64,000 bases of DNA from Alphaproteobacteria bacterium (GTDB taxonomy: Bacteria; Pseudomonadota; Alphaproteobacteria; Reyranellales; Reyranellaceae): positions 1 to 64,000 of the forward strand of contig VGCZ01000022.1 of NCBI GenBank assembly GCA_016869975.1, written 5' to 3'. The notes below the pieces were generated by a model. The model had not been told where the DNA came from. It saw only the letters and a list, made by a program, of their open reading frames with translations, and ran no database searches. Position numbers and translations under genes: made by a program. How positions within the stretch are numbered: the first letter of the stretch is position 1; the number at the start of each line of letters is the position of its first letter. Shown here piece by piece: positions 52,669 through 63,857 of the stretch.

Positions 52669-52772
52669 GAATTAAGCCCTCTTTGCGCCGGAATGTGGCG
52701 GCTGCACCAGGGAATTGCAAGCCGGCCCGGGCCTTGCATTCCAGCCCCGCAGCCGCCAGAAACGGCGCCGGG

Positions 52773-54170
52773 ATGGTCGATCTTTCAGAGCGCTACGATG
52801 TGCTGGTGATCGGCGGCGGCAACGCCGCGCTTTGCGCCGCCATCGCCGCGCGCCGCGACGGCGCCTCGGTGCTGGTGCTGGAGAAGGCCGACCGCTTCTG
52901 GCGCGGCGGCAATACGCGCCACACCCGCAACATGCGCTGCGCACACGACGCGGCCACTGACACGCTGAGCGGACCCTACACCGAGGAGGAGTTCTGGGAC
53001 GACCTGCTGCGCGTCACCGGCGGGCAGACGGATGAGGCGTTGGCCCGCCACATGATCCACGAGTCCAAGGACGTGCTGGAGTGGATGCCCCGGCAGGGCG
53101 TGCGCTTCCAGCCGTCGCTCGGCGGAACGTTGAGTCTCGGCCGCACCAACTCGTTCTTCCTCGGCGGCGGGCGCGCCATGCTCAACGCGCTCTATCGCAC
53201 CGCCGAGACGCTCGGCGTGGCGATCGCCTACGAGGCCGAGGTCACCGATCTCGATATCCAGGACGGCATGTTCCTGTCGGCGACGGTGACGCATGGCGGC
53301 GTCACGCACGAGGTGCGAGCTGGCGCCATGGTCGCGGCGGCCGGCGGTTTCGAATCGAACATCGAGTGGCTCAAGCAATACTGGGGCGACGCCGCCGACA
53401 ACTTCCTGATCCGCGGCACCTCGAACAATCGCGGCACGATCCTCAGGCTACTCCTGGACAAGGGCGTGCAGGAAGTCGGCGATCCGACGCAGTGCCACGC
53501 CGTCGCCATCGACGCGCGCGCCCCGAAGTACGATGGCGGCATCATCACGCGGCTCGATTGCGTGGTCTTCGGCATCGTCGTCAACAAGCACGCCCAGCGC
53601 TTCTACGACGAGGGCGAGGATGTCTGGCCCAAGCGCTACGCCATCTGGGGACGACTGGTGGCGGGACAGCCCGACCAGATCGCCTACATCGTCTTCGACG
53701 CGCCGTCGCTGACCATGTTCATGCCCTCGCTCTACCCGGCGATCGAGGCGCCTTCGATCCGCGCGTTGGCGGAGAAGCTGACGCTCGACCCTGTCGCGCT
53801 CGAGAAGACCGTCGGCGACTTCAACGCCGCGGTACGTCCCGGCACCTTCGATCACACCATCCTCGATGATTGCCACACCGAAGGGCTGATACCGCCCAAG
53901 ACGCATTGGGCCAGGCGCATCGAGACCGCGCCGTTCTATGCCTATCCGGTACGGCCCGGCATCACCTTCACCTATCTCGGCACTCGGGTGAACAAGCAGG
54001 CGCGCATGCTGATGAAGGACGGCCGGCCCTCGGCCAACATGTTCGCGGCGGGCGAGATCATGGCCGGCAACGTATTGGGCCGCGGCTACGCGGCGGGGAT
54101 CGGCATGACCATCGGCAGCGTCTTCGGCCGCATCGCCGGACGGGAGGCGGCGGCCAATGCACGCAACTAA
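52773..54170 (+). CDS. tcuA: FAD-dependent tricarballylate dehydrogenase TcuA
   Basis: 465 residues from the ATG at 52773; the frame is open 30 codons further but the conserved FAD motif YDVLVIGGGNAALCAA starts right after this ATG. Other landmarks are GNTRHTRNMRCAHD, TSNNRGTILRLLLDKG and NMFAAGEIMAGNVLGRGYAAGIG. TcuA oxidises tricarballylate to cis-aconitate and passes electrons to TcuB. It overlaps tcuB by 14 bases. No TcuC transporter or TcuR regulator is adjacent. Confidence 0.9.
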   Translation: MVDLSERYDVLVIGGGNAALCAAIAARRDGASVLVLEKADRFWRGGNTRHTRNMRCAHDAATDTLSGPYTEEEFWDDLLRVTGGQTDEALARHMIHESKDVLEWMPRQGVRFQPSLGGTLSLGRTNSFFLGGGRAMLNALYRTAETLGVAIAYEAEVTDLDIQDGMFLSATVTHGGVTHEVRAGAMVAAAGGFESNIEWLKQYWGDAADNFLIRGTSNNRGTILRLLLDKGVQEVGDPTQCHAVAIDARAPKYDGGIITRLDCVVFGIVVNKHAQRFYDEGEDVWPKRYAIWGRLVAGQPDQIAYIVFDAPSLTMFMPSLYPAIEAPSIRALAEKLTLDPVALEKTVGDFNAAVRPGTFDHTILDDCHTEGLIPPKTHWARRIETAPFYAYPVRPGITFTYLGTRVNKQARMLMKDGRPSANMFAAGEIMAGNVLGRGYAAGIGMTIGSVFGRIAGREAAANARN

Positions 54171-55278
54171 GGCGCTCGACGAAGCCGAACGGCTGATGAC
54201 CGTGTGCAATTCGTGCCGGTATTGCGAGGGCCTGTGTGCGGTCTTCCCGGCGATGGAGATGCGCCGCGCATTTCCCGACGGCGATCTCAACTATCTCGCC
54301 AATCTCTGCCATGGCTGCGGCGCCTGCTACTACGACTGCCAGTTCTCGCCGCCGCACGAGTTCAACGTCAACGTGCCGGTCAACCTCGCGCAAGTACGCG
54401 CCGAGTCGTATCAGACCTATGCCTGGCCGCGTGCCTTCGCGCCGCTGTTCGAGCGCAACGGCCTGGCGATCAGCCTGATCGCGGCGCTGAGCGTCGCGGC
54501 GTTTGTCGCCGGCTTCATCGCCTGGAACGATGCATCGGTGCTGTTCGGCACGCACGTTGGCCCGGGCGCCTTCTATCGCCTGATGCCGCACAACGCGATG
54601 GTGCTAATCTTCGGCGCGGCCTTCCTCTACGCCATCGTCGCGATGATCATGGGCATGGTGACGTTCTGGCGCTCGATCGCTCTGCCCATCGAGGCACCCG
54701 GTGGCATCGCGGCGCTCTGGCAGGCGATCAAGGATGCCGGCCAGTTGCGCTATCTCGATGGCGGCGGTGTTGGCTGCTTCAACGACGACGACAAGCCCGT
54801 CGACCGACGGCGGCTGTATCACCACCTGACCTTCTACGGCTTCATGTTGTGCTTCGCCTCGACCTCGGTGGCGACGCTTTATCACTACGGCCTGGGCCGC
54901 ATCGCGCCCTATCCTTGGTGGGACCTGCCGCCGCTGCTCGGCACGATCGGCGGCATCGGCCTGCTGATCGGCCCCGCCGGCCTGCTGGCGGCAAAGTGGC
55001 GACGCGATCCGGAAATCCGGGACCCGGCGCGCTACGGCATGGAGGTGGCGTTCCTCGCCATGCTGTTCCTCACCAGCCTCACGGGCCTCGCGCTGCTGAT
55101 CCTGCGCGCCACGCCCGCGATGGGCGGGCTGCTGGCGATCCACTTGGGCGTGGTGTTCGGCCTGTTCATCACCATGCCCTACGGCAAGTTCGTCCACGGC
55201 ATCTACCGCTTCCTCGCGCTGGTGCGTTACGCACGTGAACGACAGGCGATGGCGTCAAGCCACGGCGGCGCGGCCTAA
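54157..55278 (+). CDS. tcuB: tricarballylate utilisation Fe-S/cytochrome b protein TcuB
   Basis: 373 residues. Two ferredoxin-like clusters are clear: C17-x2-C20-x2-C23-x3-C27 and C51-x2-C54-x2-C57-x3-C61. They are followed by about six membrane helices with histidines (KFVHGIYRFLALVRY, LYHYGLGRIAPY) suited to haem b. TcuB reoxidises TcuA and feeds the quinone pool. It overlaps tcuA and is the last gene of the pair. Confidence 0.92.
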   Translation: MHATKALDEAERLMTVCNSCRYCEGLCAVFPAMEMRRAFPDGDLNYLANLCHGCGACYYDCQFSPPHEFNVNVPVNLAQVRAESYQTYAWPRAFAPLFERNGLAISLIAALSVAAFVAGFIAWNDASVLFGTHVGPGAFYRLMPHNAMVLIFGAAFLYAIVAMIMGMVTFWRSIALPIEAPGGIAALWQAIKDAGQLRYLDGGGVGCFNDDDKPVDRRRLYHHLTFYGFMLCFASTSVATLYHYGLGRIAPYPWWDLPPLLGTIGGIGLLIGPAGLLAAKWRRDPEIRDPARYGMEVAFLAMLFLTSLTGLALLILRATPAMGGLLAIHLGVVFGLFITMPYGKFVHGIYRFLALVRYARERQAMASSHGGAA

Positions 55279-56899: not shown

Positions 56900-56987
56900 G
56901 AGTGGAAGAAAAGAAAATATACCTATAGTTGTATTCGTCTCGAAAGCGCCTCGCGGTAGGCTCGGAGGGAACCCTGGGGAGATCGCC

Positions 56988-57533
56988 ATGCCGTCCATCC
57001 GCAAGACGCTGATCAGCGTCGAGACCCTTCACGCCACCATGGGCGAGGCCTTGCCCAAGCCGATCCGCCGCGTCGTCGGTCTGGCGGTGATCGCCAATCC
57101 GTTCGCGGGTCGCTACGTCGCCGACCTGTCACCACTGTTCCAGGCCGGCCGCGAGATCGGTGAGCGACTGATGCCCGAGCTGATCGCGGCGCTGGGTGAG
57201 CCGGCGGTGTCCTATGGCAAGGCGGCGCTGGTCGGCGCGCATGGCGAGATGGAGCATGGCGGCGCCTGCATCCATCCGATGCTGGGCAAGCCGATGCGCG
57301 CGGCGATCGGCGGCGGGCAGGCGGTGATACCGTCCAACGTGAAGCTCGGCGCGCCGGGCGCGATCATCGACATTCCGCTCGGCCACAAGGACGATGTCTG
57401 GTCGTTCGATCACTTCGACACGATCACGGAGATGATTGCCGACGCGCCGCGCGCCGACGAGATCGTCGTCGCGATCGCGCTGGCCGATGGCGGGCGTGCC
57501 CATCCGCGCTGCGGGTCAGGGCCTGTCCGGTAG
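56988..57533 (+). CDS. amino acid synthesis family protein (DUF1185)
   Basis: 181 residues from the ATG at 56988 (GGGAACCCTGGGGAG upstream). MPSIRKTLISVETLHATMGE, VIANPFAGRYVADLSPLF, GAHGEMEHGGACIHPMLG and IDIPLGHKDDVWSFDHFDT are the DUF1185 pattern. The biochemical function is not established. It opens a same-strand group with the GFA, Rieske and SnoaL-like genes and is divergent from comM across an AT-rich 125-base region holding the SOS box. Confidence 0.88.
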   Translation: MPSIRKTLISVETLHATMGEALPKPIRRVVGLAVIANPFAGRYVADLSPLFQAGREIGERLMPELIAALGEPAVSYGKAALVGAHGEMEHGGACIHPMLGKPMRAAIGGGQAVIPSNVKLGAPGAIIDIPLGHKDDVWSFDHFDTITEMIADAPRADEIVVAIALADGGRAHPRCGSGPVR

Positions 57534-59532: not shown

Positions 59533-60210
59533 TCAAAGACCCTGCGCGCGCAGGATCGCCTCGATGTGCAGTTGCGCGCAGTCGATCGACGGGAAAGTCG
59601 TGTTGTCGGTATCGAACAGCAGCGACAGGTCGGTGCCGGCGAAGATGATCGCCTCGGCACCGTCGCGCTCGATCAGCGTGCGGGCCATCGCCGTCAGCGC
59701 GCGGTGGTCGTCGGGCGCGCCTTTGCCCGAGTTCGCCGTGCGCATGTAGGCGTCGTGGATGGTGGTGATCTCGTCGGCGCGCGGCTTCACCAGATCGATA
59801 CCGGCGAGACGGCCGAACATCGCGCTTTCGATGGTGAAGCGCGTGCCGAAGAGCGCGGCGCGGCGGATGCCTTTGGTGCGCAGGTGATCGGCCAGCGGTG
59901 TCACGATATCGACCAAAGGCAGGAGCGTGATTGGCGACAGTTCGTTGAAGCAGATATGCGGCGTGACGGCGGGGATCGCCGCCAGCTCGGCGCCGGCGGC
60001 GCGCATGCGGTCGATCAGACCAGCGAGATAGCGCGCGAGTCCCTGGAGGTCGCCGGCCTGCACGTAGCGCAGGCCGGTGGGCATGTCGGCGTTGACCATG
60101 ACCAGCGGCAGCGGCTCGCCCTTCGCGGCGTGCGCCGCGGCCAGCGCTTCGTAATAGTGCACGGCGGCGCCGATACCGACGCCGCCCAGCAGGCCGAGGC
60201 AGCGGCTCAA
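59533..60210 (-). CDS. Asp/Glu racemase-fold protein lacking both catalytic cysteines
   Basis: 225 residues from a TTG at 60210. This start is chosen because GGAG lies 7 bases upstream and TTG overlaps the upstream gene's TGA (TTGA); the protein then opens CLGLLGGVGIGAAVHYYEAL as racemases do. FGTRFTIESAMFGRLAGID and FPSIDCAQLHIEAIL fit the family. The two active-site cysteines are missing: the usual IPCNTPH reads IPAVTPH (A81), and the usual LGCTELPLL reads FAGTDLSLL (G192). A racemase mechanism is therefore unlikely. It could be a lyase or isomerase on the same fold, or a binding protein. Confidence 0.8.
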   Translation of the reverse strand: MSRCLGLLGGVGIGAAVHYYEALAAAHAAKGEPLPLVMVNADMPTGLRYVQAGDLQGLARYLAGLIDRMRAAGAELAAIPAVTPHICFNELSPITLLPLVDIVTPLADHLRTKGIRRAALFGTRFTIESAMFGRLAGIDLVKPRADEITTIHDAYMRTANSGKGAPDDHRALTAMARTLIERDGAEAIIFAGTDLSLLFDTDNTTFPSIDCAQLHIEAILRAQGL

Positions 60211-61811
60211 CCGAGCTCCGCCAGATCGAAGGCCTTGCCGAAACGGCGGCTGCAATCGAGCGCGTCGCCGTATTTGCGATGCGCGGCGGTGTGCTGGGCG
60301 CAGGCCAGCAGCAGGCGGCCGCGATCAGGCTGCTTGTTCTTGAGGTAGTCCTCGATCATGCACTGGGCGATCTCCTGGTTGTGAGGATCGTTGCCCAGCC
60401 GGCTGGCCGCCAGCGCCAGTGCGCGCACCAGCGGGCCGGTCTCCGCACCGCTGTCGAGGTAGGCCTTGGTCCACGCCATGCTCTGCGGCCCGTCAAGCGC
60501 GATCAGCGCTGATGTCAGGCGATCGACGATCTCCGCAGAGGTCAGGCGATCGGCGCCCGTCGGCGCGCGCACCGATGTCCGCGCGAAATCGCCGCTCAGG
60601 TGCTGGTGATACGCCGCCTGGTTGAGATAGGCGGTGGCTAGGAACAGCAGCTTGATGCGCTGCTGGTGGGCGAAATTGTCCCAGAACCAGCCGAGCGTGT
60701 TGCAGTACTCGTAGCAGTGCTGCGGCAGCGAGAAGTTCACGTCGATATTGGTCTCGATCACCACCTCGGCGGCGCCGAGCTGGATGGCGTCGAGGATCGA
60801 GCGCGGGTCCTTTCCGGCGTTGAGCAGCCGGGCCAGCGCCTCGATATTGGCCGGCTCGGGCTGGCGCAGCACGATCTCGAGGAAGGCTTCGGTCTCGGCG
60901 GCGCTCATCGGCTCGCGGTTGTCGAGCAGCGCGCGCTCGCGCGCGGTCGTGCCGCCATAGGGCACGGCGTGCAGCACCTGGCCCTCGATGTAGACCGTGA
61001 CGGCGTTGCAGGCCATCTCGTAAAGCGAATACCAGCGCGGGCCGACGGCGATGTCGAGCGCGCCGGCGTAGAGCACGTCGTGCGCGTCGTCCCAGCCGAT
61101 GGCGTCGCCCAGCTCGACGGTGGCGCGGGCACGGAAGGATTTGTGGCCGGTGGTGTAGGAGCGGTTCTGGAAGGCGCGGTCCTGCACGTCGATCAGGCCG
61201 GCGAAGGCCAGTTCGCTGAGCGCGGCGCGGCGCTCGTCCTTGTTGCGCATGATGCCGAGGAAGACGCGGTAGGCGTCGATCACCTGGCCGCGATGCACCA
61301 GGGTCTGCCAGTGCCCGAGCCGCTCCTTCAGTGGCCCGTCGAGCGCCAGCGGCTCCTGGTCGGCCCAGTGCACCACGGGCGCCGGTGGCGGTCCCGGCGG
61401 CATCTGGAATCCGCGCGCATAGTGGCCCGGCGCCTTGATGATCTTCTGGTTCCAGATGTCCAGCCCGGTGGGGATGTACCAGATGGTCTGCGCCATCGGC
61501 AGGCCGGCCTGCACCCCGGGCAGCAGGCGCGCGAGGTTCAAGGTGGCGCGCGCGCTCAGCAGGCAGTGGTCGTTGTTGACGAAGTTGACGTACCCGTCGT
61601 CGATGCGCTCGTGATAGGGCACGTGGGTGTAGGGCGCGTGGATGCGCACCGCCTCGGCCAGCATTTCGGGCAGCGGCCGGCCGGCTTTGAAGAGCTGATG
61701 GTAGGTATCGAGGGCGCCGATCTGGTCGCGCGCCAGAACGCGCTCCTCCAGCTTGGCGTAAAGCGCGTCGGGCCGGTCACTGGCGCCTGCTCTTGCCACT
61801 CCGTCTGGCAT
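60207..61811 (-). CDS. protein of unknown function, coupled to the racemase-like gene
   Basis: 534 residues from the ATG at 61811, which has GGGAGGCGACG directly upstream; 31 earlier codons are not needed. I do not recognise the family. It is soluble and largely helical, with no signal peptide or membrane segment. It is rich in aromatic and His residues in stretches such as HVPYHERIDDGYVNFVNNDH, GWDDAHDVLYAGALDIAVG, FSLPQHCYEYCNTLGWFWDN and YLNQAAYHQHL, the last part being TPR-like. Its stop overlaps the TTG of the racemase-like gene, so the two are made together. It is divergent from the flavin monooxygenase gene. It might be an enzyme with metal or haem, but no known motif proves it. Confidence 0.75.
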   Translation of the reverse strand: MPDGVARAGASDRPDALYAKLEERVLARDQIGALDTYHQLFKAGRPLPEMLAEAVRIHAPYTHVPYHERIDDGYVNFVNNDHCLLSARATLNLARLLPGVQAGLPMAQTIWYIPTGLDIWNQKIIKAPGHYARGFQMPPGPPPAPVVHWADQEPLALDGPLKERLGHWQTLVHRGQVIDAYRVFLGIMRNKDERRAALSELAFAGLIDVQDRAFQNRSYTTGHKSFRARATVELGDAIGWDDAHDVLYAGALDIAVGPRWYSLYEMACNAVTVYIEGQVLHAVPYGGTTARERALLDNREPMSAAETEAFLEIVLRQPEPANIEALARLLNAGKDPRSILDAIQLGAAEVVIETNIDVNFSLPQHCYEYCNTLGWFWDNFAHQQRIKLLFLATAYLNQAAYHQHLSGDFARTSVRAPTGADRLTSAEIVDRLTSALIALDGPQSMAWTKAYLDSGAETGPLVRALALAASRLGNDPHNQEIAQCMIEDYLKNKQPDRGRLLLACAQHTAAHRKYGDALDCSRRFGKAFDLAELG

Positions 61812-63251: not shown

Positions 63252-63857
63252 ATGCCCGACAACATTCACATCAAGCTGAACACCGCGTCCGTCGAGGCGC
63301 GGGTCGATGCGATTCAGGCCGCGTTCGAAGAGCGCGGCATGAAGCCGGCGGAGTTCATCGGCGAGTTCCGCGAGCTCGCCGAGGAGAAATGGCTGCCCGA
63401 GAACGGCGCGCGGGTCTGCGCCAAGGCGTGGACCGATCCGGCCTTCAAGGCGCGGCTGATGGCCAATGGCAAGGACGCGGTGGCCGAGCTGGGCCTGAGC
63501 ATGCCGGCGCATCACCGTCATCTGGTCGTGCTGGAGAACACGGCGAGCATCCACAACGTGATCGTCTGCACGCTGTGCTCGTGCACGGCCTTCTCGATCA
63601 TCGGCCTGCCGCCGGACTGGTACAAGGATCTGGAGTACCGCGCCCGCGTCGTGCGCCAGTCCCGTACGGTGCTGAAGGAGATGGGCCTGGAGCTGCCCGC
63701 CTCCACCGAGATCCGCGTGTGGGACACCACGGCCGACACGCGCTACATGGTGCTGCCGATGCGTCCATCAGGGACCGAGGGCTGGTCCGAGGAGAAGCTC
63801 GCCGGGCTGATCAGCAAGGACATGATGATCGGCGTCGCGCGCGTGGCGGGGACTTAG
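63252..63857 (+). CDS. nthA: nitrile hydratase alpha subunit
   Basis: 201 residues. The metal claw is V-C106-T-L-C109-S-C111, whose second and third cysteines become oxidised in active enzyme. The Thr at 107 is the cobalt-type residue. However, the flanking sequence, CTAFSIIGLPPDWYK, EYRARVVRQSRTVLKEMG and DTTADTRYMVLPMRP, is close to iron-type enzymes (CSLCSCTAW, VLSEMG, DTTAETRYMVLP). The alpha-then-beta gene order also fits the iron type. It hydrates nitriles to amides with the beta subunit, which begins 3 bases after its stop. Confidence 0.93.
   Translation: MPDNIHIKLNTASVEARVDAIQAAFEERGMKPAEFIGEFRELAEEKWLPENGARVCAKAWTDPAFKARLMANGKDAVAELGLSMPAHHRHLVVLENTASIHNVIVCTLCSCTAFSIIGLPPDWYKDLEYRARVVRQSRTVLKEMGLELPASTEIRVWDTTADTRYMVLPMRPSGTEGWSEEKLAGLISKDMMIGVARVAGT

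Follow-up and report, generated by a model that had tools for sequence, protein, structure and literature searches.

A conserved clade of Asp/Glu racemase-fold proteins in Alphaproteobacteria that lacks both catalytic cysteines

Based on sequence alignment and phylogeny, the gene located at positions 59533-60210 of the analyzed window (the whole stretch of 64,000 nucleotides, from a genome of Reyranellaceae) belongs to a monophyletic, unnamed and conserved alphaproteobacterial clade within the Asp/Glu racemase superfamily, and the members of this clade carry neither of the two catalytic cysteines. Its product is very probably a functional, non-canonical member of the family, and a different reaction is probable because both catalytic cysteines are gone and the fold is kept. 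No described Cys-free clade of this fold was found in the open-access literature searched. The features of the gene and its surroundings are as follows:

59533..60210, minus strand: racemase-fold gene of 225 aa with a TTG start, member of Cys-free clade A
59968..59970, minus strand: Ala81 codon, aligned with the first catalytic Cys (Thr83 in EcL-DER, Ala79 in RacX)
59635..59637, minus strand: Gly192 codon, aligned with the second catalytic Cys (Cys197 in EcL-DER, Cys193 in RacX)
59746..59748, minus strand: Tyr155 codon, candidate for a substitute acid/base; Tyr in 62/62 of the Cys-free clade and Ile in 25/25 of the Cys-type relatives
59629..59631, minus strand: Asp194 codon, Asp in 57/62 of the Cys-free clade and Glu in 25/25 Cys-type relatives
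59950..59952, minus strand: Cys87 codon (motif HICFNEL), enriched in the clade (54/62) and outside the catalytic columns
60207..60210, minus strand: TTGA, where the start codon overlaps the stop codon of the 534-aa gene lying upstream (TTG start at 60210, TGA of the partner at 60209-60207)
60219-60216, minus strand: GGAG, 5 bases upstream of the TTG start
60207..61811, minus strand: gene of the 534-aa protein (no Pfam family), located upstream of the racemase-fold gene and overlapping it

The gene, its fold and its catalytic columns

The coordinates given in the initial annotation are correct, and the gene is located on the minus strand; the plus-strand frame across the same interval is open, yet it is not the gene. 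The TTG start is supported because the homologs L024, L030 and L031 begin at the same point in the alignment. The overlap with the neighboring gene, which had also been annotated, is present in the window and in two congeners (G005 and G008).

The PF01177 profile (Asp/Glu/hydantoin racemase superfamily) spans residues 8-218 of the protein and scores 78.1 bits, above its cut-off of 31; the score of the protein for the NCBIfam amino acid racemase model TIGR00035 is 85.6 bits, below the curated cut-off of 93.1. With phmmer it is aligned end to end with the solved racemases 3OJC, 2ZSK, 1JFL and 5ELM. Ala81, within the motif IPAVTPH, and Gly192, within FAGTDLSLL, occupy the catalytic columns without gaps, both against these structures and against Cys-bearing relatives, and the original observation that both catalytic cysteines are replaced is thus upheld. 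In detail, the protein carries neither the pair of cysteines of the two-base thiol Asp/Glu racemases nor the single Cys at the second position of the EcL-DER/RacX type. The Cys in HICFNEL, which had been named as a possible occupant of a catalytic position, is located six residues past the Ala81 column and is replaced by Ala in 8/33 clade A sequences, so that it was rejected as the catalytic Cys.

The structure predicted with AlphaFold2 from a 56-row alignment (pLDDT 93.4, pTM 0.90) showed Asp/Glu racemases as its top Foldseek matches, namely 3OJC (TM 0.87), 5HRA (0.87) and 5ELL (0.84), with arylmalonate decarboxylase (AMDase) and the glutamate racemases far lower (TM 0.53-0.66). According to this model the racemase fold is retained.

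The comparison with known enzymes places the losses in context. EcL-DER (E. coli YgeA; PDB 5ELL/5ELM) has the same fold and belongs to the same subfamily (TM ~0.84, 24% identity), but it carries Thr83/Cys197 where the window protein has Ala81/Gly192 and thus lacks the Cys on which EcL-DER depends; a change from Cys197 to Ser abolishes the activity of EcL-DER, as cited in PMC12838360. RacX of Halocola ammonii, an active racemase with Ala79/Cys193 (PMC12838360), resembles the window protein in having Ala at the first position; unlike it, RacX keeps Cys193 and Asn80/Thr81 and is active on amino acids. In OpaE both cysteines matter, the second most, and C199S leaves 0.3% activity or less (PMC12661438). 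The aspartate racemase of Pyrococcus horikoshii (1JFL, 2DX7) and its homolog PH1733 (2ZSK) share the two-lobed fold, the GG and the T-x-H motifs. 1JFL has both cysteines and the 2DX7 chain has, by alignment, Ala at the first site, whereas the window protein has neither Cys. AMDase, with Gly74/Cys188 and Cys188 as the proton donor (PMC4996985), shares the superfamily, one Cys position turned small and transporter genes as neighbors, but it keeps Cys188 and is distant in sequence and structure. Its motifs LMGTSLSF and ILLSCGGL are not those of the window protein, which has IPAVTPH and FAGTDLSLL.

The cysteine-free clade

When 61 genomes from the family were searched, the nearest relatives were found within the same genus (81-88% identity, the 88% referring to a protein of a congener in the MAG JALHMM010000037.1, Reyranellaceae bacterium), followed by ~30 proteins at 42-52% identity (clade A) and ~45 at 30-38% (clade B). 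In the alignment, clade A is characterized by the motifs PA(V/I)TPH...AGT(D/E) and clade B by S(M/I/L)GGHFC...GGTDL-type motifs. Ten further families of Alphaproteobacteria carry members of the clade, according to the class and phylum searches. Outside Alphaproteobacteria the phylum-wide search showed no Cys-free type, the weaker matches that were checked (L129 and L164-L172) being ordinary Cys-type proteins, and among the matches listed in the plasmid search there were only proteins of ~32% identity or less.

A wide contig scan gave only three loci, of which L009 is truncated at the end of its contig and L008 looks chimeric. In the latter (L008:14-2350), a clade A-like N-terminal part of ~90 aa continues in frame as a methyltransferase-like sequence (IGNPPYN); this is probably a chimeric metagenome contig rather than a real fusion. 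The genome of the window contains two paralogs of its own, one with Ala/Gly at the catalytic columns (L003, G000:C6:137357-137977) and one with the first Cys kept and Gly at the second position (L002, G000:C17:21689-22306).

In the maximum-likelihood tree of Cys-free and Cys-type proteins, calculated with the two catalytic columns masked, the Cys-free proteins form one side of a branch with support of 99/94. Clade B is supported with 100/99 and clade A with 90/81. The window protein falls within this clade and has its diagnostic residues, that is, Gly in the second column, Ala or Ser in the first, Tyr155 and Phe199. The existence of a clade sharing A81 and G192, which had been suggested as a check, is therefore established: both are among the thirty-six columns invariant in 31 clade A rows, and G192 is found in 62/62 sequences of the wider clade. 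Their conservation is thus not due to chance. Similarly, a sequencing or frame error was ruled out, since the same residues recur across the clade.

Residues were counted in 87 distinct sequences, 62 from the Cys-free clade (33 of clade A and 29 of clade B) and 25 of the Cys type, a comparison set of modest size taken entirely from Pseudomonadota. At the second catalytic position, all 62 clade sequences carry Gly and all 25 other members Cys; the latter group is defined by this very Cys, with every fetched Asp/Glu-type PF01177 protein fitting one group or the other. At the first position all 62 clade sequences have Ala or Ser, and the 25 Cys-type relatives have Thr (14), Cys (4), Ser (3), Ala (2) or Asp (2). 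Loss of the first Cys is therefore common in the family, and it is Gly192, not Ala81, that marks the clade. Of the residue pair initially singled out, Gly192 remains distinctive, whereas Ala81 is not special, active racemases having Ala (RacX) or Thr (EcL-DER) at this site.

Further differences accompany those of the catalytic columns. The substrate-binding Asn82 is lost in 62/62 clade sequences (V/M/L/I) and kept in 92% of the others, and Phe199 is a gained residue, invariant in 62/62. Cys87 is found in 25/33 sequences of clade A, in 29/29 of clade B and in 0/25 of the Cys-type relatives. His85, Thr193, Asp210, His215 and the GG loop, common to the clade and the active racemases, are largely kept. 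Thr83 is kept in clade A and mostly lost in clade B, and the reaction may therefore differ between the two clades.

Gene neighborhoods and a second cysteine-free branch

The initial annotation had raised the question of whether homologs always accompany the 534-aa protein. This is not the case. Homologs of the 534-aa protein occur in 13 of the 41 genomes searched, its own included (64-96% identity in the 12 relatives), but in 10 of these 13 there is no adjacent clade A gene; such a gene adjoins it in three congeneric genomes only. Moreover, the protein is absent from the vicinity in 18/18 of the clade A loci examined in the genus coded g3, which is probably Reyranella. Both genes thus occur separately elsewhere, and an obligate two-gene system or fixed operon was rejected.

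The 534-aa protein is itself very strongly conserved, with many invariant His, Trp and Asn residues and a dN/dS of 0.13 between congeneric copies (NG86). It showed no Pfam or NCBIfam family and no PDB sequence match. AlphaFold predicts its structure with only fair confidence (pLDDT 75). The top-ranking fold hits, to the questin oxidase BTG13 and to a related non-haem iron dioxygenase, fall short of significance (E 0.14-0.2). PF14027, the questin oxidase family, gave no match in 31 genomes (that of the window among them), but its controls were likewise without one, so that this result carries no information.

At all 18 clade A loci examined in genus g3, a lactonase-like hydrolase of the metallo-beta-lactamase fold follows the racemase-fold gene. 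A 3-hydroxyisobutyrate-dehydrogenase-like protein is found in 15/18, an LctP-like permease in 13/18, and a GST-like protein and a TctC receptor in 7/18 each. The order of the cluster is LctP-like permease, dehydrogenase-like protein, GST-like protein or TctC, racemase-fold gene and lactonase-like hydrolase. In the window's own genus the neighbors are AA_synth (PF06684), a Rieske oxygenase, a SnoaL-like protein, the 534-aa protein, a luciferase-like monooxygenase and a nitrile hydratase alpha subunit. CoA-transferase III and other genes adjoin the Cys-free gene in further genomes, and the neighbors of clade B vary between genomes. The setting of clade A, and not that of clade B, would point to carboxylate catabolism; the inference of a pathway is limited to a part of clade A because the neighbors differ between clades and genera.

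Several single cases were also recorded. A PF06684 gene is located near the Cys-free gene both in the window's own genus (clade A; window 56985-57533) and in G010 (clade B; L107:1066-1617). In five genomes of the family coded f22 (L135, L141, L142, L143 and L145), a clade B gene is placed between a CobS-type gene and the CobT gene of the aerobic cobaltochelatase. The window also includes a TcuA/TcuB-like tricarballylate dehydrogenase pair (52683-55278, plus strand), which looks ordinary, and the nitrile hydratase alpha subunit gene (63252-63857, plus strand), which in a congener is followed by the beta subunit (L089 15746-16363).

A second Cys-free branch (L173-L202) was found among the hydantoin-racemase-type proteins of Reyranellaceae. 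The L079 protein and its 29 closest fetched relatives carry Ala/Gly at both columns in 30/30 cases (AAFGDPGL...LAGAPLAG). In G013, the gene directly downstream of the 534-aa gene (L079:4499-5242, plus strand) is this member of the hydantoin type. These proteins have the same Ala/Gly pair as the window protein and differ from it in belonging to the hydantoin-type branch and in their ABC-transporter cluster: a gene for an ABC-transporter solute-binding protein is close by in 9/10 of the larger loci. A polysaccharide-deacetylase-like gene often follows the Cys-free gene. Polysaccharide-deacetylase-like proteins include allantoinases, which would fit ureide metabolism. The parallel Ala/Gly pair is suggestive of a chemistry shared with clades A and B, although it is no proof of it.

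Possible functions of the clade

Ordinary two-base racemization by the window protein is unlikely, judging from its residues, because both thiols and the binding Asn are lost. It is possible, if somewhat short of probable, that the window protein is a non-thiol isomerase- or lyase-type enzyme for a small carboxylate or oxo-acid, which probably acts in a carboxylate-catabolic pathway. Under such a mechanism the two-base thiol racemization of amino acids would no longer be performed, the two half-sites would bind the small carboxylate or oxo-acid, and a non-thiol acid/base would promote an isomerase- or lyase-type step. The leading candidate for this role is Tyr155, the sole invariant ionizable residue that is specific to the clade, and Asp194 or His215 may come next. 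The hydroxyacid dehydrogenase and the lactonase-like hydrolase would be the probable partners in the pathway.

Pseudoenzymes are known to arise by such losses of catalytic residues, and a silent one, whose fold would only bind a small acid, either for sensing or to regulate a neighboring enzyme, is a less likely explanation which still deserves consideration. Both acid/bases are lost and replaced by invariantly small residues, and the neighbors change between genera, as would be expected in this case; on the contrary, the polar residues His85, Thr193, Asp210 and His215, together with Tyr155, are invariant across 62 sequences, and the gene is repeatedly placed in a catabolic-looking cluster. 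The loss of both catalytic residues is also the sole point in favor of a decaying copy, which is highly improbable: the frame is intact, dN/dS between the three congeneric copies (0.19, 0.31 and 0.34; NG86) is well below 1, and identical substitutions are invariant over many genomes and families. The initial view that this is not a dead gene agrees with these values and with the invariant residues across 31 relatives.

That the protein is still an amino-acid or hydroxyacid racemase or epimerase, with one other base (e.g., Cys87 or Tyr155) and water, seems unlikely. The activity of RacX with Ala at its first site (PMC12838360), the enrichment of Cys87 in the clade and the close match of the predicted fold to EcL-DER are in line with it, but the site lost here is the second Cys, essential in OpaE (PMC12661438) and, as cited, in EcL-DER; Cys87 is Ala in part of clade A, and the substrate-binding Asn is absent. 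A cofactor-free decarboxylase similar to AMDase is still harder to accept. AMDase also lacks the first Cys, and its gene clusters often include tripartite-tricarboxylate transporter genes (PMC4996985), as the TctC receptor of the 7/18 clade A loci may recall; its protonation, however, needs Cys188, which is the Gly site here (PMC4996985), AMDases are distant fold matches (TM 0.53-0.62), and both of their motifs are absent from the window protein.

The database label for proteins of this kind, "aspartate/glutamate racemase family protein," is probably wrong for the clade because the residues defining the reaction are absent. The parallel Ala/Gly pair in the hydantoin-type branch suggests that both bases were lost more than once. 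Tentatively, the fold may have given rise at least twice in Alphaproteobacteria (in clades A and B and in the hydantoin type) to Ala/Gly-type enzyme families that act on small carboxylates or ureides by a new chemistry without thiols. The clade is a clear test case for the reuse of a pseudo-symmetric two-base fold once both bases have been lost.
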